A DNA stretch of 64,000 nt from Desulfonauticus submarinus (GTDB lineage Bacteria; Desulfobacterota; Desulfovibrionia; Desulfovibrionales; Desulfonatronovibrionaceae), in assembly GCF_900104045.1 (NCBI RefSeq), contig NZ_FNIN01000002.1, forward strand, positions 186,001 through 250,000. The letters are read 5' to 3'. Position 1 is the first letter of the stretch, and the number at the start of each line of letters is the position of its first letter. Below the pieces are notes generated by a model. That model did not search any database. It was given only the letters and a program-made list of their open reading frames with translations, and was not told where the DNA came from. Positions 3,875-38,519 of the stretch are shown here, in pieces. A program made the translations under genes and the position numbers.

Positions 3875-4756
3875 TTACTTTAAACCCAACTTAGCATAAG
3901 CGTGTTTTAAATGCTCAATCCAAATTTCTACAATTTCCTTCATTTCTCCTGTACCTTTAAGGATAGGATGACATTTGAATCCAGCCTTACTTAAAATCCC
4001 CTTCCAAGAATCTGACTCATCTCCTGCCAAATCATTATGAGCATGGTCTCCAGCTACTGACATAAATGGCATCAAATAAACATCTTTTATTTTATGTTGC
4101 TTTAACTCTTGCTTAACCTCTCTAATCGTAGGCCAGCCTTCTACTGTACCCAAAAATACTTTCTTGTTTTTTAACCAAAGCGCATATTGCAAAGCTGCAT
4201 AATAACTATTTGCTCTATGTTCTGTACCATGCCCCATTAAGGCAATACCCCAGCCCTTCTTTAAACTAGGTAAATTTTTTAATAAAGCATCTGCTACCTT
4301 AGGAATATCGTGAACAGAATAAAGAAGAGGTGTCCCTAAAACAATCTTAGTAAACCCCTTTGGCATTACAGAAAACCCTTCTACTACCTGTTCCAGATAT
4401 TCATATTCTTCTCCTGGTATAGTATGTAGAGATTGGACTGCTACATGAGTAAACCCATCGCTCATCATCTGAGCCAAAGCTTTTACAGGAGAAGGAATAT
4501 TTTTCCCCTCTTTAGCTAATTTATGGCGAATAATAGAAGAAGTATAGGCCCATCTTACCTCAATACCAGGAAATGCCTTTTTAACCTCTTTTTCAAAAAA
4601 AGAATAAGCCCTTTTACCATCAGGATAAGATGTACCAAAAGCAACAAGCAAAATTCCTGGTTTAGGAGAATGTTTGTGTTTTGAAGCAAAACAAATACTA
4701 CTAACGCCTACAAATAAACATAGCCCCAAAACCAATACTAAACATTTTTTTAACAT
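3875..4756 (-). CDS. cbiK: Sirohydrochlorin cobaltochelatase CbiK, exported (CbiKP-type)
   Basis: Type II chelatase that inserts cobalt into sirohydrochlorin. Likely metal-site histidines are His111 in SLHTIPGEEYE, His176/His180 in MGHGTEH and the GDHAHND segment around 237-242. Residues 1-24 form a clear signal peptide (positive KK, hydrophobic core, CFA before Ser25), so the protein should be periplasmic. A periplasmic CbiK paralogue that binds haem is known in Desulfovibrio vulgaris; whether this one does is unknown. The start has GGAGGG at 4763-4768, six bases upstream. It is the first gene of the cobalamin run, directly under the riboswitch. Confidence 0.93.
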   Translation of the reverse strand: MLKKCLVLVLGLCLFVGVSSICFASKHKHSPKPGILLVAFGTSYPDGKRAYSFFEKEVKKAFPGIEVRWAYTSSIIRHKLAKEGKNIPSPVKALAQMMSDGFTHVAVQSLHTIPGEEYEYLEQVVEGFSVMPKGFTKIVLGTPLLYSVHDIPKVADALLKNLPSLKKGWGIALMGHGTEHRANSYYAALQYALWLKNKKVFLGTVEGWPTIREVKQELKQHKIKDVYLMPFMSVAGDHAHNDLAGDESDSWKGILSKAGFKCHPILKGTGEMKEIVEIWIEHLKHAYAKLGLK

Positions 4757-4810
4757 AAAATACCCTCCATATAAATTTTAGGGGCTTTTTAAAAAGATTA
4801 AAATACAGCG

Positions 4811-4842
4811 CCTCCTAGATAAAGCCCCCGTTATCTAGGAGG
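4811..4842 (-). promoter_or_regulatory. 12-bp perfect hairpin, likely expression platform of the cobalamin riboswitch
   Basis: The arms CCTCCTAGATAA and TTATCTAGGAGG enclose an eight-base loop. In the RNA the loop plus two stem bases (GGGGCUUU) is complementary to AAAGCCCC at 4781-4788, just upstream of the cbiK Shine-Dalgarno sequence. The 5' arm CCUCC is complementary to the GGAGG of that site. No run of U follows the stem, so control of translation start fits better than intrinsic termination. The pairing scheme is inferred by eye. Confidence 0.6.
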
Positions 4843-4847
4843 AAAGA

Positions 4848-5015
4848 CTTCTTCTGGCAGGTCTTCCGGCTCGTTCCCCTTAAACTCGGCCTTCCCATTC
4901 TTAAAAAAGAACAGTGGCACTCTTGGAGTTTAAGGTTATTGGAACTCACGGCGGCGGGACCGCTCCCGAATTGCACGGGATTCCCTATTAAGCCTTGCGG
5001 CACCAGAAGAAAAAT
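4848..5015 (-). ncRNA. Cobalamin riboswitch
   Basis: Reading leftwards, the sequence has the conserved cobalamin aptamer blocks in order: GGTGCCGCAAGGC, AGGGAATCCCGTGCAA, a GC-rich GGTCCCGCCGCCGTGA segment, the B12-box core GCCACTG, GGGAAGGCCGAG, and GAGCCGGAAGACCTGCC. The closing stem P1 is visible as TCTTCTGG pairing with CCAGAAGA at the two ends. It lies between a promoter (5033-5061) and cbiK, so it should repress the cobalamin genes when B12 is plentiful. Confidence 0.96.
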
Positions 5016-5032
5016 TATCTTCAGAAAATAGA

Positions 5033-32690: not shown

Positions 32691-32960
32691 TTAATGAATA
32701 TAATTTGGAAGATTTAAAAGTAAATCTCTAGTAAATGTTATCATTTTATCCATTATCCAAGGAAAGCTAACCAACAAAACCAAAAAAATTGAAATAATTT
32801 TAGGTATAATCGACAAGGTCATCTCTTGAAGTTGAGTAGCAGCCTGAATTACAGAAACAAACACACCAACAATAAGCCCTACTCCTAACATAGGCAAAGA
32901 GATAAAAAGCGTAAGCTCTATAGACTGTCTGGCAAAACCTACAATAAATTCTGGAGTCAT
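32691..32960 (-). CDS. fliQ: Flagellar export apparatus protein FliQ
   Basis: 89-residue membrane protein of the flagellar type III export gate, with two hydrophobic helices and the signature TPEFIVGFARQSIELTL at the N terminus. It is the last gene of the leftward flagellar run that begins at motA. It lies 19 bases after fliP and has a GGAG-type site. Confidence 0.95.
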   Translation of the reverse strand: MTPEFIVGFARQSIELTLFISLPMLGVGLIVGVFVSVIQAATQLQEMTLSIIPKIISIFLVLLVSFPWIMDKMITFTRDLLLNLPNYIH

Positions 32961-32979
32961 TTTTTTCTCCTTTAGACAT

Positions 32980-33768
32980 TTAATAAAAACTATTAACCAA
33001 AGATCCCACTAGCAAATTCCAGCCATCAACCATTACAAAAAGAAGAATCTTAAAAGGCAAAGAAATCATAATAGGTGGCAACATCATCATACCCATGGAA
33101 AGTAAAATACTTGCCACAACCATATCTAAAATAAGAAAAGGAATATAAATAAGAAATCCTATTTCAAATCCAGTCTTTAACTCGCTTATCATATAGGCAG
33201 GCAAAAGAAGAAGTGTTGGCACATCTTCTTTAGTTTCAGGTCGCTTCAGGCCTGTAATTGCATAAAAAATGGAGAGATCTTTTTCTCTTGTATGTTTAAA
33301 TAAAAAAGCACGTAAAGGTTGCTCTGCTCTTTTTAAAGCCTCTTTATAGCCTATTTCTTCATGAAGATAGGGTTGAAGCGCACTCTCATTTATTTGTTTG
33401 CCTACAGGAGCCATAATGGCAGCTGTCATAAAAATAGCCAAAGCGATTAAAACTTGATTGGGAGGCATTTGTTGTGTTCCAAGAGCATGTCTTAAAAAAG
33501 AAAATACTACAATAATGCGAGTAAAAGAAGTTAAAGTCAAAATAATGGCAGGAGCTAAGGACAAAACTGTCAAAAGAAACAGTATTTCTAGCAAGACAGA
33601 AACCTTTTCAGGTTCTGTTTGGCCTGCTGCTAATTTTAAAGTGATAGTTGGTAATGTTGGTCCTTCTGCTGCCCAAAGAACTGTGGGAAGAAAAATAAAG
33701 AAAAATAAATTAAGAACAAGAATTTTGTTCTTGTTCCAATACCTTACCAAAGTCCTCATCTTTATCAT
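32980..33768 (-). CDS. fliP: Flagellar export apparatus protein FliP
   Basis: 262-residue export-gate protein. An N-terminal cleaved signal sequence (to about LWA-AE, residue 34) is followed by the FliP core: TSFTRIIVVFSFLRHALGTQQMPPNQVL and GMMMLPPIMISLPFKILLFVMVDGW. The start is one of two nearby ATGs (33768 or 33759) preceded by GAGG. The gene begins inside the end of fliO, a 59-base overlap, which is unusually long. Confidence 0.95.
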   Translation of the reverse strand: MIKMRTLVRYWNKNKILVLNLFFFIFLPTVLWAAEGPTLPTITLKLAAGQTEPEKVSVLLEILFLLTVLSLAPAIILTLTSFTRIIVVFSFLRHALGTQQMPPNQVLIALAIFMTAAIMAPVGKQINESALQPYLHEEIGYKEALKRAEQPLRAFLFKHTREKDLSIFYAITGLKRPETKEDVPTLLLLPAYMISELKTGFEIGFLIYIPFLILDMVVASILLSMGMMMLPPIMISLPFKILLFVMVDGWNLLVGSLVNSFY

Positions 33769-34060
33769 GATCCACTTCTACCTCACTTAAAAAAGTCATG
33801 GTGTTTTCACTAACACCAATCAAAACCTTTTTATTCAAGAAGCGGACCATTAAAAGAGATTTTTTAGGATTTACTGGAATAGAACAAAGTACTTCTAATT
33901 CTCCATGACTTTGAGATTTAAAAATAGACTTGGGACCAAAACGACGTAAAAGATAATATAAAAGTAAAATAAAAGCTAAAAGAAAAAATAATGCGCCTGC
34001 CATCTTTAAAGTGGCCACACCTAAACTCATTTGGGGAGAAGCAAAAGTTGCATTAGACAT
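33710..34060 (-). CDS. fliO: Flagellar biosynthetic protein FliO
   Basis: 116-residue protein with one membrane helix (residues about 14-40, MAGALFFLLAFILLLYYLLRR) and a short cytoplasmic beta domain (LEVLCSIPVNPKKSLLMVRFLNKKVLIGV) typical of FliO. It helps assemble FliP in the export gate. The C-terminal acidic tail (DHDKDEDF) is encoded in the region overlapping fliP. Confidence 0.9.
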   Translation of the reverse strand: MSNATFASPQMSLGVATLKMAGALFFLLAFILLLYYLLRRFGPKSIFKSQSHGELEVLCSIPVNPKKSLLMVRFLNKKVLIGVSENTMTFLSEVEVDHDKDEDFGKVLEQEQNSCS

Positions 34061-34093
34061 AGTAGTTACTAGGTATATTTTTTAATAGGTTGT

Positions 34094-34678
34094 CTAACCA
34101 AGCTGTTTAATCCTCTCAATTGGGCTAATTATATCTGTCAACCTAACTCCAAACTTTTCATTAATAACAACAGCCTCTCCTCGTGCTACCAATTTCCCAT
34201 TTACTAAAATTTCCAACGGCTCTCCTGCTAGTTTATTTAATTCTATTACCGATCCCTGCCCTAATTGTAAAAGCTCATTAATAAGCAATTGGGTACTACC
34301 CAGTTGGGCAGTTACTGTAAGCGGAATATCTAAAATAAATTCTAACTCTCTCTTGGTTCCTGGTGGGGCTTTTTTAGCCTCCTCTGTCAAATCTTTGAAT
34401 TGAGCAGTCTTACTCTGTGCGGCTAATGTTTTTTGTTTTTTTTCTTCTTCTACTTTATTAGCCTCTTCTGCTGCCAAAGCTTTTGCCCACTCATCGGCTA
34501 AAGCCTCTTCATCTTTAGGCTCTGCCTCTTTGTTTTCTTCCTGTTGAGTATTTTCTTTAGCTTCTGTAGGTGCAGCTTGGTTAGACTCCTCAGCAGAAGA
34601 TTCTTCAAGTAAATCTTCTCCCCCATCTTCTAAGGCTTTTGCCCATTCTTCTGCTAATTTTTCTTGATCATCAGTCAT
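34094..34678 (-). CDS. fliN: Flagellar motor switch protein FliN with acidic N-terminal extension
   Basis: 194 residues. The C-terminal surface-presentation domain (about 110-194: LELILDIPLTVTAQLGSTQLLI, GSVIELNKLAGEPLEILVNGKLVARGEAVVI) forms part of the C-ring. The first 105 residues are a low-complexity Glu/Ala/Lys region containing LAEEWAKAL (8-16) and LADEWAKAL (60-68), a near-exact repeat with a 52-residue period. Longer FliN N termini with one such helix occur in relatives; two copies suggest a duplicated partner-binding segment. It follows fliM by 11 bases. Confidence 0.95.
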   Translation of the reverse strand: MTDDQEKLAEEWAKALEDGGEDLLEESSAEESNQAAPTEAKENTQQEENKEAEPKDEEALADEWAKALAAEEANKVEEEKKQKTLAAQSKTAQFKDLTEEAKKAPPGTKRELEFILDIPLTVTAQLGSTQLLINELLQLGQGSVIELNKLAGEPLEILVNGKLVARGEAVVINEKFGVRLTDIISPIERIKQLG

Positions 34679-34689
34679 ATTTATATCTC

Positions 34690-35667
34690 CTAAAAGTGAG
34701 GTTCTTCTTCTTTTATTACCTGATAAGCTTTATTCCCCTTAACATAGCCAGGAAGCCCATGAAACTTTAAAACTCCTTGAACATAACCAGGTAATAAATC
34801 GCCTTCATCTGTATCCAAAAGTAACACGTCTCCTACCTCTAAATTCAGCAACTGTCTGCCAGTTATTTGGGTTTTTCCTAGCGTAACCTTAAACTCTACA
34901 GGGACTTCCATCAGTCTTTCTTTAAACCTAGAAATCCAAGCATGGTCAACTTCTAGCCTCTCAGACTGATAAGCTGCATATAGTTTAGAGCGAATTGGTT
35001 CAATAGTAGCATACGGCAAACAAACGATTAAGGAACCAATGGCATTATCCAATTCCACTTCAAAACTTATTACCACTACAACATCACTAGGCGGGACAAT
35101 AGCAGCAAATTGTGGATTTATTTCTGAACGAACATATTCAATTTTAACTTCATGCACTGGTTGCCAAGAGGATTCCATGTTAGCCAATAAAATTTTTACC
35201 ACCTTTTTAATAATTGCTTGTTCTATTGGGGTAAAATCTCTGCCCTCCACTTTTGGTTGACTTCCAGAGCCTCCAAAAAAACTTTCTACTAAAGCAAAAA
35301 CTAACCTTGTATCCACAACTAAAATAGCATTTCCCCGAAGAGGTTCTATTTTAAAAATATTAATACTTGTCGGTACAGGTAGAGAGCGCATAAAATCACC
35401 AAATTTACTCATATCTATAGAAACAGGATTTACATCCACTCTTTTGCGCATCGCATTGGCCAAAGCATTACTAGATAAACGAGCAAATCTATCATTTATA
35501 ATTTCTAAAACAGGCATTCGTCCCCGAATAATTCTATCTTGATTAGAAAGATCAAAAGGCACTACTCCTGAATCATCTTCAGGGACATCTGTTTCTGCTT
35601 CTATCTCTCCACCAGTAAGGCCTCTTAACAAGGCATCTACTTCATCCTGACTTAATATCTTGTTCAT
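34690..35667 (-). CDS. fliM: Flagellar motor switch protein FliM
   Basis: 325-residue C-ring protein that receives the CheY signal. It starts with LSQDEVDALLRGL (CheY-P-binding segment, residues 4-16). The middle CheC-like domain (VLEIINDRFARLSSNALANAMRKR ... VDTRLVFALVESFFGGSG) and the FliN-like C-terminal domain follow. It begins immediately after the fliL stop (stop ends at 35668, start at 35667). Confidence 0.97.
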   Translation of the reverse strand: MNKILSQDEVDALLRGLTGGEIEAETDVPEDDSGVVPFDLSNQDRIIRGRMPVLEIINDRFARLSSNALANAMRKRVDVNPVSIDMSKFGDFMRSLPVPTSINIFKIEPLRGNAILVVDTRLVFALVESFFGGSGSQPKVEGRDFTPIEQAIIKKVVKILLANMESSWQPVHEVKIEYVRSEINPQFAAIVPPSDVVVVISFEVELDNAIGSLIVCLPYATIEPIRSKLYAAYQSERLEVDHAWISRFKERLMEVPVEFKVTLGKTQITGRQLLNLEVGDVLLLDTDEGDLLPGYVQGVLKFHGLPGYVKGNKAYQVIKEEEPHF

Positions 35668-36188
35668 TTATTGGACCACCAATTCTGTAAAATAAACCCT
35701 TAAGACTTTACCTTGACCCAATATTTGAGTCATCCTTGAAACTATCTCGTTTTTTAGTTCTAACTTCCCCTTTACTGTACTAATATCTGCAAAAGTTTTA
35801 CTCGATAAAAGAAGAATAATGGCATCTTTTATTTGAGGCAATTTTTTTTCCATTTCCTCCACAACTTTTTTATTTTTTAATTCTACATCCATACTTAACT
35901 TTAAATACCTTCTGCCTAAAGGGTCTGCCAAATTCACAATAAAAGAAGGCAACGTATATATCTCTGTGGGCCCCTCTTCCTGTTTTGCTTCTTCTTGTTT
36001 CTCTTCCTGTTTAGTTCCATTTTGAACTTGCTCTTTATTCTCCTTTGGACTTAAAAAATACTTATAAGCAAAAAACCCCCCCCTCCAAGCAAAGCCAAAA
36101 CCACCACTCCAATTATAATCCACTTCAACTTTCCACCTTTTTTTTCTATTTTTTCTTCTTTTTCTTCTGTTTTTTTCTTTTTAGCCAT
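35668..36188 (-). CDS. fliL: Flagellar basal-body protein FliL, reading frame interrupted at a G8 tract
   Basis: FliL is a single-pass membrane protein next to the stator. An ATG at 36186-36188 opens a normal FliL N terminus: a Lys/Glu-rich tail, then WIIIGVVVLALLGGGG. At the run of eight G (36076-36083) that frame goes to a stop after FLLISIF. The rest of FliL (FFAYKYFLSPKE onward, 35668 to about 36075) is one frame away. Nine or six G would restore a 173-residue protein. It could be sequencing error, a recent mutation, or phase variation by slippage. A GTG at 36123 could start the second part, but without the anchor. Confidence 0.85.
36076..36083 (-). repeat. Homopolymeric G8 tract in fliL
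   Basis: Eight consecutive G on the coding (minus) strand lie exactly at the junction between the two fliL frames, followed by six T. Such runs are slippage-prone. The background is very AT-rich, so the tract stands out. Confidence 0.85.
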
Positions 36189-36202: not shown

Positions 36203-36934
36203 TTATAAATAGTGATATCCATTAATCTTTAATAAAATCTCTACACGCCTATTCCTTTTTCTTCCTTCTGGAGTTTTATTATCTGCAATAGGAAAATTTG
36301 GACCGTACGCTGAAACAGAAAACCGCTCTGGAGCAATATGTTGCTCTCTTAAAAACTCTAACACAGCAAGAGCACGTAAAGAAGAAAGAGTATAATTGTC
36401 CATTTTTCTGCTTTTTAAATTATCTGTATAACCAGCTATATTTACAGGTGCAGGCCAAATGGAAATTAAAATTGCTATCTGCTTTAAAAGCTCTTTAGCA
36501 GCTGGCAACAATTGATACGCACCTGGCTTAAACAATATACCGTCATGCAAAACTAGGGCCACTCCTTCTGGCCTTTTCAAAATTTCTAAATTTTTTTGCA
36601 AAGTACTTTTAGTTATCTCAGGAGGCAACACCTCATCAGGGAACAACAAATCAATAATCCTTTGCTGTTTATCTAAAATCTCCCATGGTTTTTGCAAAAT
36701 ATCTTTTAAAAGCTTAAATCTATCTTCTATTTTAACATTCGAAGAAGCACCCAAAAAACCTGTACTCTGAGTAAATACAGATACAACATCTTTTACTACA
36801 CTATTATCTAAACTAGACATGGATAAAAGCAAAACAAAAAAAGTTAAAAGCAAAGTGACTAAATCTGAAAAAGTCACCAACCACCCATCTTTTGGTGGTC
36901 CCCCTCCTCCTTTGCTTTTTTTTCGTTTGCCCAT
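36203..36934 (-). CDS. motB: MotB-family stator protein (second copy)
   Basis: 243-residue stator component. A short cytoplasmic basic tail (KRKKSKGGGGPPKDG) and a membrane helix with the proton-channel aspartate Asp24 (TFSDLVTLLLTFFVLLLSMSS) come first. A C-terminal OmpA-like peptidoglycan-binding domain follows (about 125-240; NIAGYTDNLKS, LSSLRALAVLEFL, GRKRNRRVEI). It abuts the preceding motB with a one-base overlap. Two MotB-like genes with one MotA occur in related sulfate reducers; they may form mixed or alternative stators. Confidence 0.93.
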   Translation of the reverse strand: MGKRKKSKGGGGPPKDGWLVTFSDLVTLLLTFFVLLLSMSSLDNSVVKDVVSVFTQSTGFLGASSNVKIEDRFKLLKDILQKPWEILDKQQRIIDLLFPDEVLPPEITKSTLQKNLEILKRPEGVALVLHDGILFKPGAYQLLPAAKELLKQIAILISIWPAPVNIAGYTDNLKSRKMDNYTLSSLRALAVLEFLREQHIAPERFSVSAYGPNFPIADNKTPEGRKRNRRVEILLKINGYHYL

Positions 36935-37758
36935 TATTCCTTCGGACCATTAAGATCAAAAATAAAATCTTTATAAATAAATTTATCTTTTTTTACTTTA
37001 CCTTTTAACTTATATCTAGCAAGTTCTTCACTTGCCCAGGACTTTATCCTTTTATCTAAAACAAGTTCTACCCTTCTATTTTGCTTTCTTCCTTGAGCTG
37101 TCATATTAGAATAACGGGGTCTAAAACGCCCAAAAGCTTCTATCCTTAATTTTTTAGGATCAATACCAGAACTTAAAAAATATTTATACACAGCTAAGGT
37201 ACGCGCTAAAGACAACTTCCAAGACAAATCCAGTTTAGATTTTGCCTGCATTTTAAGATACTCAGGGCCAAATTCATCTCTTAAACTTCCAACATGACCT
37301 CTTAATTCAATAGGATATTCTATATTTTTTAAAATCTTTATAATTTTATTTAGTAATTGTTTTCCCTCTGCTGTCAACTCAGCGCTCCCAGGGGAAAATA
37401 ATATATCCGTTCCAAGTTCTAAAACCTGTAGAAATCTATTAGACATTAAGTTTAAATCTCTATTCTTCTCATCCCACAATAATGGTTTAATCGCCTGAAA
37501 ATCCTTAATTCCCTCAAACGGCCCTGGCTCTGCAGCACTTTTACCCTTATCTTTATTTAATGGAACAATGCCTGTAGGTCCTAAACCAAAAGAGCCAGCT
37601 AAAGCCCCTAATGCTCTTTTCACTTTTCTCTCGTCTTTTAATGACGCCATAGAAAGCAATAAGACAAAAAAAGTGAGCAACAAGGTCATCATATCTGAAA
37701 AGGTAACTAACCATGCAGGCATGCCTTCTTCTTTAGTTTCTTTTTCTTTTTTACTCAT
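36934..37758 (-). CDS. motB: MotB-family stator protein (first copy)
   Basis: 274-residue stator protein with the membrane helix and channel aspartate Asp22 (VTFSDMMTLLLTFFVLLLSMAS). A longer linker and an OmpA-like domain follow (about 115-245; FSPGSAELTAEGKQLLNKI, ELRGHVGSL, GRKQNRRVELVLD). It differs enough from the next copy to be an old duplication. It overlaps the motA stop by one base. Confidence 0.93.
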   Translation of the reverse strand: MSKKEKETKEEGMPAWLVTFSDMMTLLLTFFVLLLSMASLKDERKVKRALGALAGSFGLGPTGIVPLNKDKGKSAAEPGPFEGIKDFQAIKPLLWDEKNRDLNLMSNRFLQVLELGTDILFSPGSAELTAEGKQLLNKIIKILKNIEYPIELRGHVGSLRDEFGPEYLKMQAKSKLDLSWKLSLARTLAVYKYFLSSGIDPKKLRIEAFGRFRPRYSNMTAQGRKQNRRVELVLDKRIKSWASEELARYKLKGKVKKDKFIYKDFIFDLNGPKE

Positions 37759-38519
37759 TATTCTGATTGCTTACGCATTTTTGGAGGAATAAAACTATTT
37801 AATTTATCTTCTACAATTCTAGGATTCTCTCCTTTAGAAATTGACAATATGCCCTCTAATATCATTTCCTTAATAAGTCGTTCTTCTTTACTTCTAGTTT
37901 TAAGTTTACCTGCCATTGGATTAAATACCAAATTAGCCAAGATAGCGCCGTAAAAAGTAGTGATCAAAGCTACAGCCATAGATGGACCAATACTGCTTGG
38001 ATCATTCATATTTTGAAGCATCTGCACAAGACCAATAACTGTACCTATCATTCCCATGGCCGGAGCAAATGCTCCCATTATGCTTAATATCTCTGAACCA
38101 AGTTCATGTCTCTCTTCCATATAAGATATTTCAGTCTCTAAAATCTCTTGAATTGTCTGTGGTTCCAACCCATCCACTGTAAGTTGTAAGCCTTTTTGCA
38201 AAAAAGGATCCTGTACCTCTTTAATTAAAGGCTCTAAAGCTAAAATGCCTTCTCTTCTTGCTCTATTGGCATAATCAATAAAACGTTCTATAACTTGGGT
38301 AGGATTATCTCCTTTTGCAAAAAAAGTATTTTTAATAACCCCCATAACCCCTAACACATGACCTAGAGGATAATTTACTAAAGTAGCCCCAATCGTCCCA
38401 CCTATAACAATTAACATAGACGGAACATTAACAAATATCATTGGGCTACCACCTGTAACAATAGCCCCAGCCACTAAACCGAAAGATAATACTATACCAA
38501 CAATAGTTGCTAAATCCAT
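37758..38519 (-). CDS. motA: Flagellar motor stator protein MotA
   Basis: 253-residue membrane protein with four helices: GIVLSFGLVAGAIVTGG, PSMLIVIGGTIGATLVN, MGAFAPAMGMIGTVIGLVQML and the SMAVALITTFYGAILANLVFNP segment with the conserved proline. The cytoplasmic loop between helices 2 and 3 contacts the C-ring. The ion (proton or sodium) cannot be assigned safely. It is the first of the motor/switch/export genes, 49 bases after yggS. Confidence 0.95.
   Translation of the reverse strand: MDLATIVGIVLSFGLVAGAIVTGGSPMIFVNVPSMLIVIGGTIGATLVNYPLGHVLGVMGVIKNTFFAKGDNPTQVIERFIDYANRARREGILALEPLIKEVQDPFLQKGLQLTVDGLEPQTIQEILETEISYMEERHELGSEILSIMGAFAPAMGMIGTVIGLVQMLQNMNDPSSIGPSMAVALITTFYGAILANLVFNPMAGKLKTRSKEERLIKEMILEGILSISKGENPRIVEDKLNSFIPPKMRKQSE

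Follow-up and report, generated by a model that had tools for sequence, protein, structure and literature searches.

A one-base frameshift at a G8/T6 junction divides fliL in Desulfonauticus submarinus

Results and Discussion

The fliL locus and its flagellar operon

We analysed a 64,000-nucleotide stretch of the Desulfonauticus submarinus genome (assembly GCF_900104045.1, contig NZ_FNIN01000002.1, positions 186,001 to 250,000; hereafter "the window"). It carries a flagellar operon of the order motA-motB-motB-fliL-fliM-fliN-fliO-fliP-fliQ, the same order as in the congeners, in which fliL occupies its expected place but is present as two pieces in different reading frames (Table 1). The second piece is a strong match to the periplasmic FliL domain (PF03748, E 3.8e-26, 92.1 bits against a Pfam cut-off of 24.6). 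The fliL stop codon and the fliM ATG adjoin each other, and translation of fliM may be coupled to that of fliL. Between motA and fliL lies a tandem pair of different motB-like genes, both with MotB_plug and OmpA domains (window 36203-37758, minus strand), and this pair is also conserved in the congeners.

Table 1. Positions in the window of fliL and its neighbours.
Feature	Position	Strand	Remarks
fliN, fliO, fliP, fliQ	32691..34678	-	all intact
fliM	34690..35667	-	intact; ATG abuts fliL stop codon
FliL remainder, shifted frame	35668..36069	-	AYKYFLSP... linker and periplasmic FliL domain PF03748; TAA 35670-35668
GGGGGGGGTTTTTT	36070..36083	-	one base missing relative to relatives; in-frame slippery heptamers G GGT TTT and T TTT TTG
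FliL N-terminal piece, 45 aa	36054..36188	-	basic cytoplasmic tail and transmembrane helix, ends ...LLGGGGFLLISIF; matches congener N termini
second motB-like gene (MotB_plug, OmpA)	36203..36934	-	intact; directly upstream of fliL
motB-like gene	36934..37758	-	intact
motA	37758..38519	-	intact

The genus is described as having a monopolar (single polar) flagellum (PMC8860800). FlhA, FliF and three flagellins are encoded intact elsewhere in the genome, and loss of the entire flagellar system was rejected on these grounds. The genome also possesses a second, divergent fliL (G000:C2:44013-44714; locus L042, 514-1215), which is intact, encodes 233 aa (PF03748, 7.4e-12) and lies beside a cheY-like gene. 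The congeners likewise have a second FliL, and in D. submarinus this protein might partly replace the product of the broken gene. Comparison with congener contigs over about 32.7-44.6 kb showed no other split gene, by a method that also passed over the fliL break unnoticed. A scan of coding potential through the window, meant to reveal further frameshifts, was likewise insensitive: fliL was missed, since upstream the other frame is open. Elsewhere in the window, a cobalamin riboswitch (RF00174, 105.4 bits, 4839-5022, minus strand) lies upstream of the cobalt chelatase gene cbiK (3878-4774), and further cobalamin-synthesis genes, including cbiG (471-1253), are also downstream of it.

The site of the frameshift

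Read on the minus strand of the sequence as given, fliL opens with an ATG at 36188 and runs into eight G (36083-36076) followed immediately by six T (36075-36070); it is within this stretch, GGGGGGGGTTTTTT (36083-36070), one base short in comparison with relatives, that FliL goes out of frame. The initial frame reads GGA GGG GGG GGT TTT TTG CTT ATA AGT ATT TTT and then meets a TAA (36053-36051). One added base yields a single FliL of 173 residues, and the restored protein is identical whether that base extends the G run to nine (GGG TTT TTT) or the T run to seven (GGT TTT TTT). Both congeners translate LLGGGGFFAY at this site, from the codons GGG GGA GGT GGT TTT TTT GCC TAC in one and GGA GGT GGT GGT TTT TTT GCC TAC in the other. 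The eight G of D. submarinus, read in frame as GGA GGG GGG GGT, encode four glycines as in both congeners, and the T run is seven bases long in the congeners and six here. In the ORFs of the window a glycine codon standing before a T is GGT 73 times and GGG 31 times, and given this preference, loss of a T is no less likely than loss of a G. Judged from the bases themselves, the lesion is best placed at the G8/T6 junction and not demonstrably inside the G run, and the missing base could equally be a T or a G.

An earlier sequence-only reading of this DNA had proposed that a one-base frameshift splits fliL, which is borne out by the 45-aa initial frame and the PF03748 remainder in another frame. 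It had also held that one extra G restores 173 residues; this is so, and a seventh T does likewise. Its placement of the break exactly at G8 needs amendment: the frame is lost at the junction of the two runs, and the congeners' T7 makes a missing T possible. A second, compensating lesion in fliL was rejected, since the fit to the congeners holds at the N terminus and at the C terminus, as was separate translation of the C-terminal piece from a GTG at 36123, the product of which would be cytoplasmic and would lack the membrane helix.

In about 30 FliL loci of relatives (a count that omits three of the fetched loci, L033, L034 and L037), the N-terminal tail and helix share one frame with the domain; in D. 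submarinus that single frame is lost at 36083-36070. When the C-terminal piece was compared with the two congeners, which are two genomes of other species, pN was 0.13 and 0.16 and pS was 0.89 and 0.80. Because pN is far below pS, fliL has been under strong constraint through nearly all of this divergence. In a simulation, the chance that the 399-nt remainder would contain no stop had fallen to 5% after about 40 neutral substitutions. From the constraint and the stop-free remainder together, it follows that the break is recent, is bypassed or is not real.

Origin of the G run and homopolymer tracts elsewhere in the genome

The FliL membrane helix ends in a conserved run of glycines, and we attribute the G8 in fliL to codon choice at this Gly-rich helix end. 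The second fliL of the same genome carries an in-frame G8 at the same motif (ATA GGG GGG GGA TAT), as does FliL in two other genera of the order (L047, L012); in the congeners G runs at the site reach at most five, and G8 is not conserved there. The run had been thought striking in an AT-rich genome, but it is not especially so, as the window holds one G8 against 0.47 expected in shuffles, and 28 of 100 shuffles contain at least one. Genome-wide, six G/C runs of at least 8 were found against about 1.9 from a simple iid estimate, and 18 of at least 7 against an iid estimate of 11.5; long G/C runs are thus in mild excess.

All 18 tracts of G>=7 in the genome were read in context, and 17 of them are in frame within genes, the fliL site being the only one out of frame. 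The in-frame tracts include C9 and G8T7 in dnaB, G8 in ftsK, lepA and the second fliL, and one at the argH start. The frames of those in dnaB, argH, a gene with CxxCH heme-binding motifs (L064) and a near-C-terminus tract (L063) were judged by reading three frames, because gene boundaries confused the automatic test in these cases. Thus errors at such runs are not a general feature of the assembly, a draft of 23 contigs. At the very start of dnaB, a stretch of 45 bases (G000:C1:17898-17942; locus L070) contains both C9 and G8T7, each in frame, and makes a good internal control for homopolymer counting. The window's ORFs of 200 aa or longer contain 91 A/T tracts of at least 7, a count biased by the choice of intact ORFs. 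In this genome-wide survey of the 18 G>=7 tracts, no group of genes that might switch by means of out-of-frame G tracts is visible. MutS (an open frame of 879 aa) and MutL (589 aa) are both present and have no stops. Mismatch repair lowers the mutability of short runs.

Competing explanations of the break

We consider it most likely that a recent one-base loss in an otherwise functional fliL occurred in the sequenced cells, probably by ordinary replication slippage and not as part of an evolved switch; this reading commands about half of our confidence. It is supported by the match of both termini to the congeners on the two sides of a single missing base. Next in rank, and to be regarded as a tenable but rather doubtful alternative, is a miscount during sequencing or assembly, in which case the true site would be GGGGGGGGTTTTTTT (T7) or would have nine G, and FliL would be intact. 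A G8 immediately before a T6 is a difficult sequence context, the assembly is a multi-contig draft, and the strong constraint on the rest of fliL and the otherwise intact operon are what an undamaged gene would show. On the other hand, the seventeen other long G tracts (the dnaB pair, ftsK, lepA and the second fliL among them) are counted in frame, as are the A/T tracts of the window within the selection bias given above; homopolymer miscounting is therefore no general fault here, and we infer that the loss is biological. The sequence-only reading was right to list mutation and sequencing error as equal alternatives. The frameshift is real in the sequence, and its reading as a switch is without positive support.

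A break that is tolerated, or even used, through recoding is unlikely. Full-length FliL would then come from ribosomes that shift frame by -1 on G GGT TTT (alternatively on T TTT TTG) or from transcript slippage on G8/T6. Heptamers of the form X XXZ ZZN do stand in the right frame ahead of the 0-frame stop, and a ribosome slipping by -1 at G GGT TTT would make exactly GGGGFFAYK, i.e. wild-type FliL. G_GGU_UUU is among the shiftiest heptamers on mammalian ribosomes (PMC5009743), in E. coli R_RR.U_UU.Y stands out as a shifty class of motif (PMC4066793), and a chance heptamer in E. coli rpoB suppresses a frameshift at 5% (PMC7022156). However, such a heptamer arises automatically once GGT TTT TTT loses one T or G, and by chance G GGT TTT and T TTT TTG occur in frame elsewhere 2 and 13 times, respectively, among 52 ORFs of 200 aa or longer. 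Neither congener has a frameshift at the site and the orthologues all read in a single frame, so recoding is not conserved; the 80 nt of RNA downstream fold little better than shuffles (-9.2 kcal/mol, z -1.08, in folding without pseudoknots) and gave no stimulatory structure; and slippage in bacteria typically takes place on runs of nine A or T (PMC1088944), whereas the T run here is six. It is nevertheless plausible that some full-length FliL would be made by bypass.

We rank phase variation last and think it distinctly improbable. It would have the G (or T) run change length reversibly and so switch FliL, with a motor-blocking stub as the off state. The homopolymer does lie within the first quarter of a motility gene, a one-base change does toggle the fliL frame, and the stub belongs to a class of alleles that stops motility (PMC10127578). 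Yet the proposal that G8 is an on/off switch for FliL finds no positive support: the conserved Gly motif accounts for the tract, the genome has no other G tract of at least 7 out of frame, MutS and MutL are present, and six or seven T, or eight or nine G, would be short for a switch in a repair-proficient cell. The sequence-only reading had itself named a degenerate, non-G tract with an intact frame in related strains as evidence against a switch, and this is what both congeners have (GGG GGA GGT GGT and GGA GGT GGT GGT), their G runs being broken up. Still more improbable is that FliL acts as a reversible motility switch with a non-null off state, in which the stub would stop the motor while slippage of DNA, transcript or ribosome at G8T6 would provide full-length FliL in some of the cells or molecules.

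Predicted consequences of a recent base loss

If a recent base loss is the correct explanation, the GGGGGGGGTTTTTT(T) stretch would have gone from T7 to T6 or from G9 to G8, ordinary slippage in replication being the probable cause, and a peptide of 45 residues comprising the N-terminal tail and helix would be produced in place of FliL. In several bacteria, motility is lost with fliL alleles that keep the N terminus and helix but not the periplasmic domain, and is retained with alleles that lack the N-terminal region (PMC10127578); because of this difference the predicted phenotype would be motor restraint and not a simple null, and by analogy with those alleles the stub would block or slow motility. 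Termination would come about 380 nt ahead of the fliM start, and the lost coupling may lower expression of fliM and the genes downstream of it. Some full-length FliL may persist through a -1 slip of the ribosome on G GGT TTT. A motor-blocking allele in a wild-type culture would fit uncomfortably with a flagellated genus, the published description covering flagellation and not this genome.

Should the mutation prove genuine, the culture that was sequenced may derive from a flagellated species but be defective in motility, and it would constitute a natural test of the idea that the N-terminal part of FliL restrains the motor. The locus also cautions against taking a homopolymer frameshift in a motility gene, on its own, for a switch, and against assuming that the eye-catching run, here G8, is the run that lost a base. 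The finding is ordinary in kind; what is added is that the lesion is now placed at the G8T6 junction, that long G tracts across the genome serve as a control, and that the stub is predicted to block the motor.

Comparison with known systems

The site resembles the poly-G/poly-C contingency genes of Campylobacter (PMC8355987, PMC6321876) in having a homopolymer in the coding sequence of a motility gene, where one base toggles the frame; it differs from them in that the fliL tract is not conserved in congeners, belongs to no set of such genes, occurs alongside mismatch-repair genes and is known from one assembly. With frameshift suppression on a chance heptamer in E. coli rpoB (PMC7022156), and with -1 programmed frameshifting, it shares a frameshifted gene and a shifty heptamer at which a slip restores the protein; in contrast to these, the fliL site is not conserved, no stimulatory structure was found, and the case is known from sequence alone. 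The remaining comparison is with fliL mutants, namely the stator-gene variants of Bdellovibrio (PMC11323537) and alleles of the delta-fliL3 type (PMC10127578). The break in D. submarinus is seen in a single assembly, and slippage at G8T6 is its probable cause; it shares with those mutants a mutated fliL in an otherwise intact flagellar system, and, as in the delta-fliL3 alleles, the N-terminal tail and helix are kept here and the periplasmic domain is lost.
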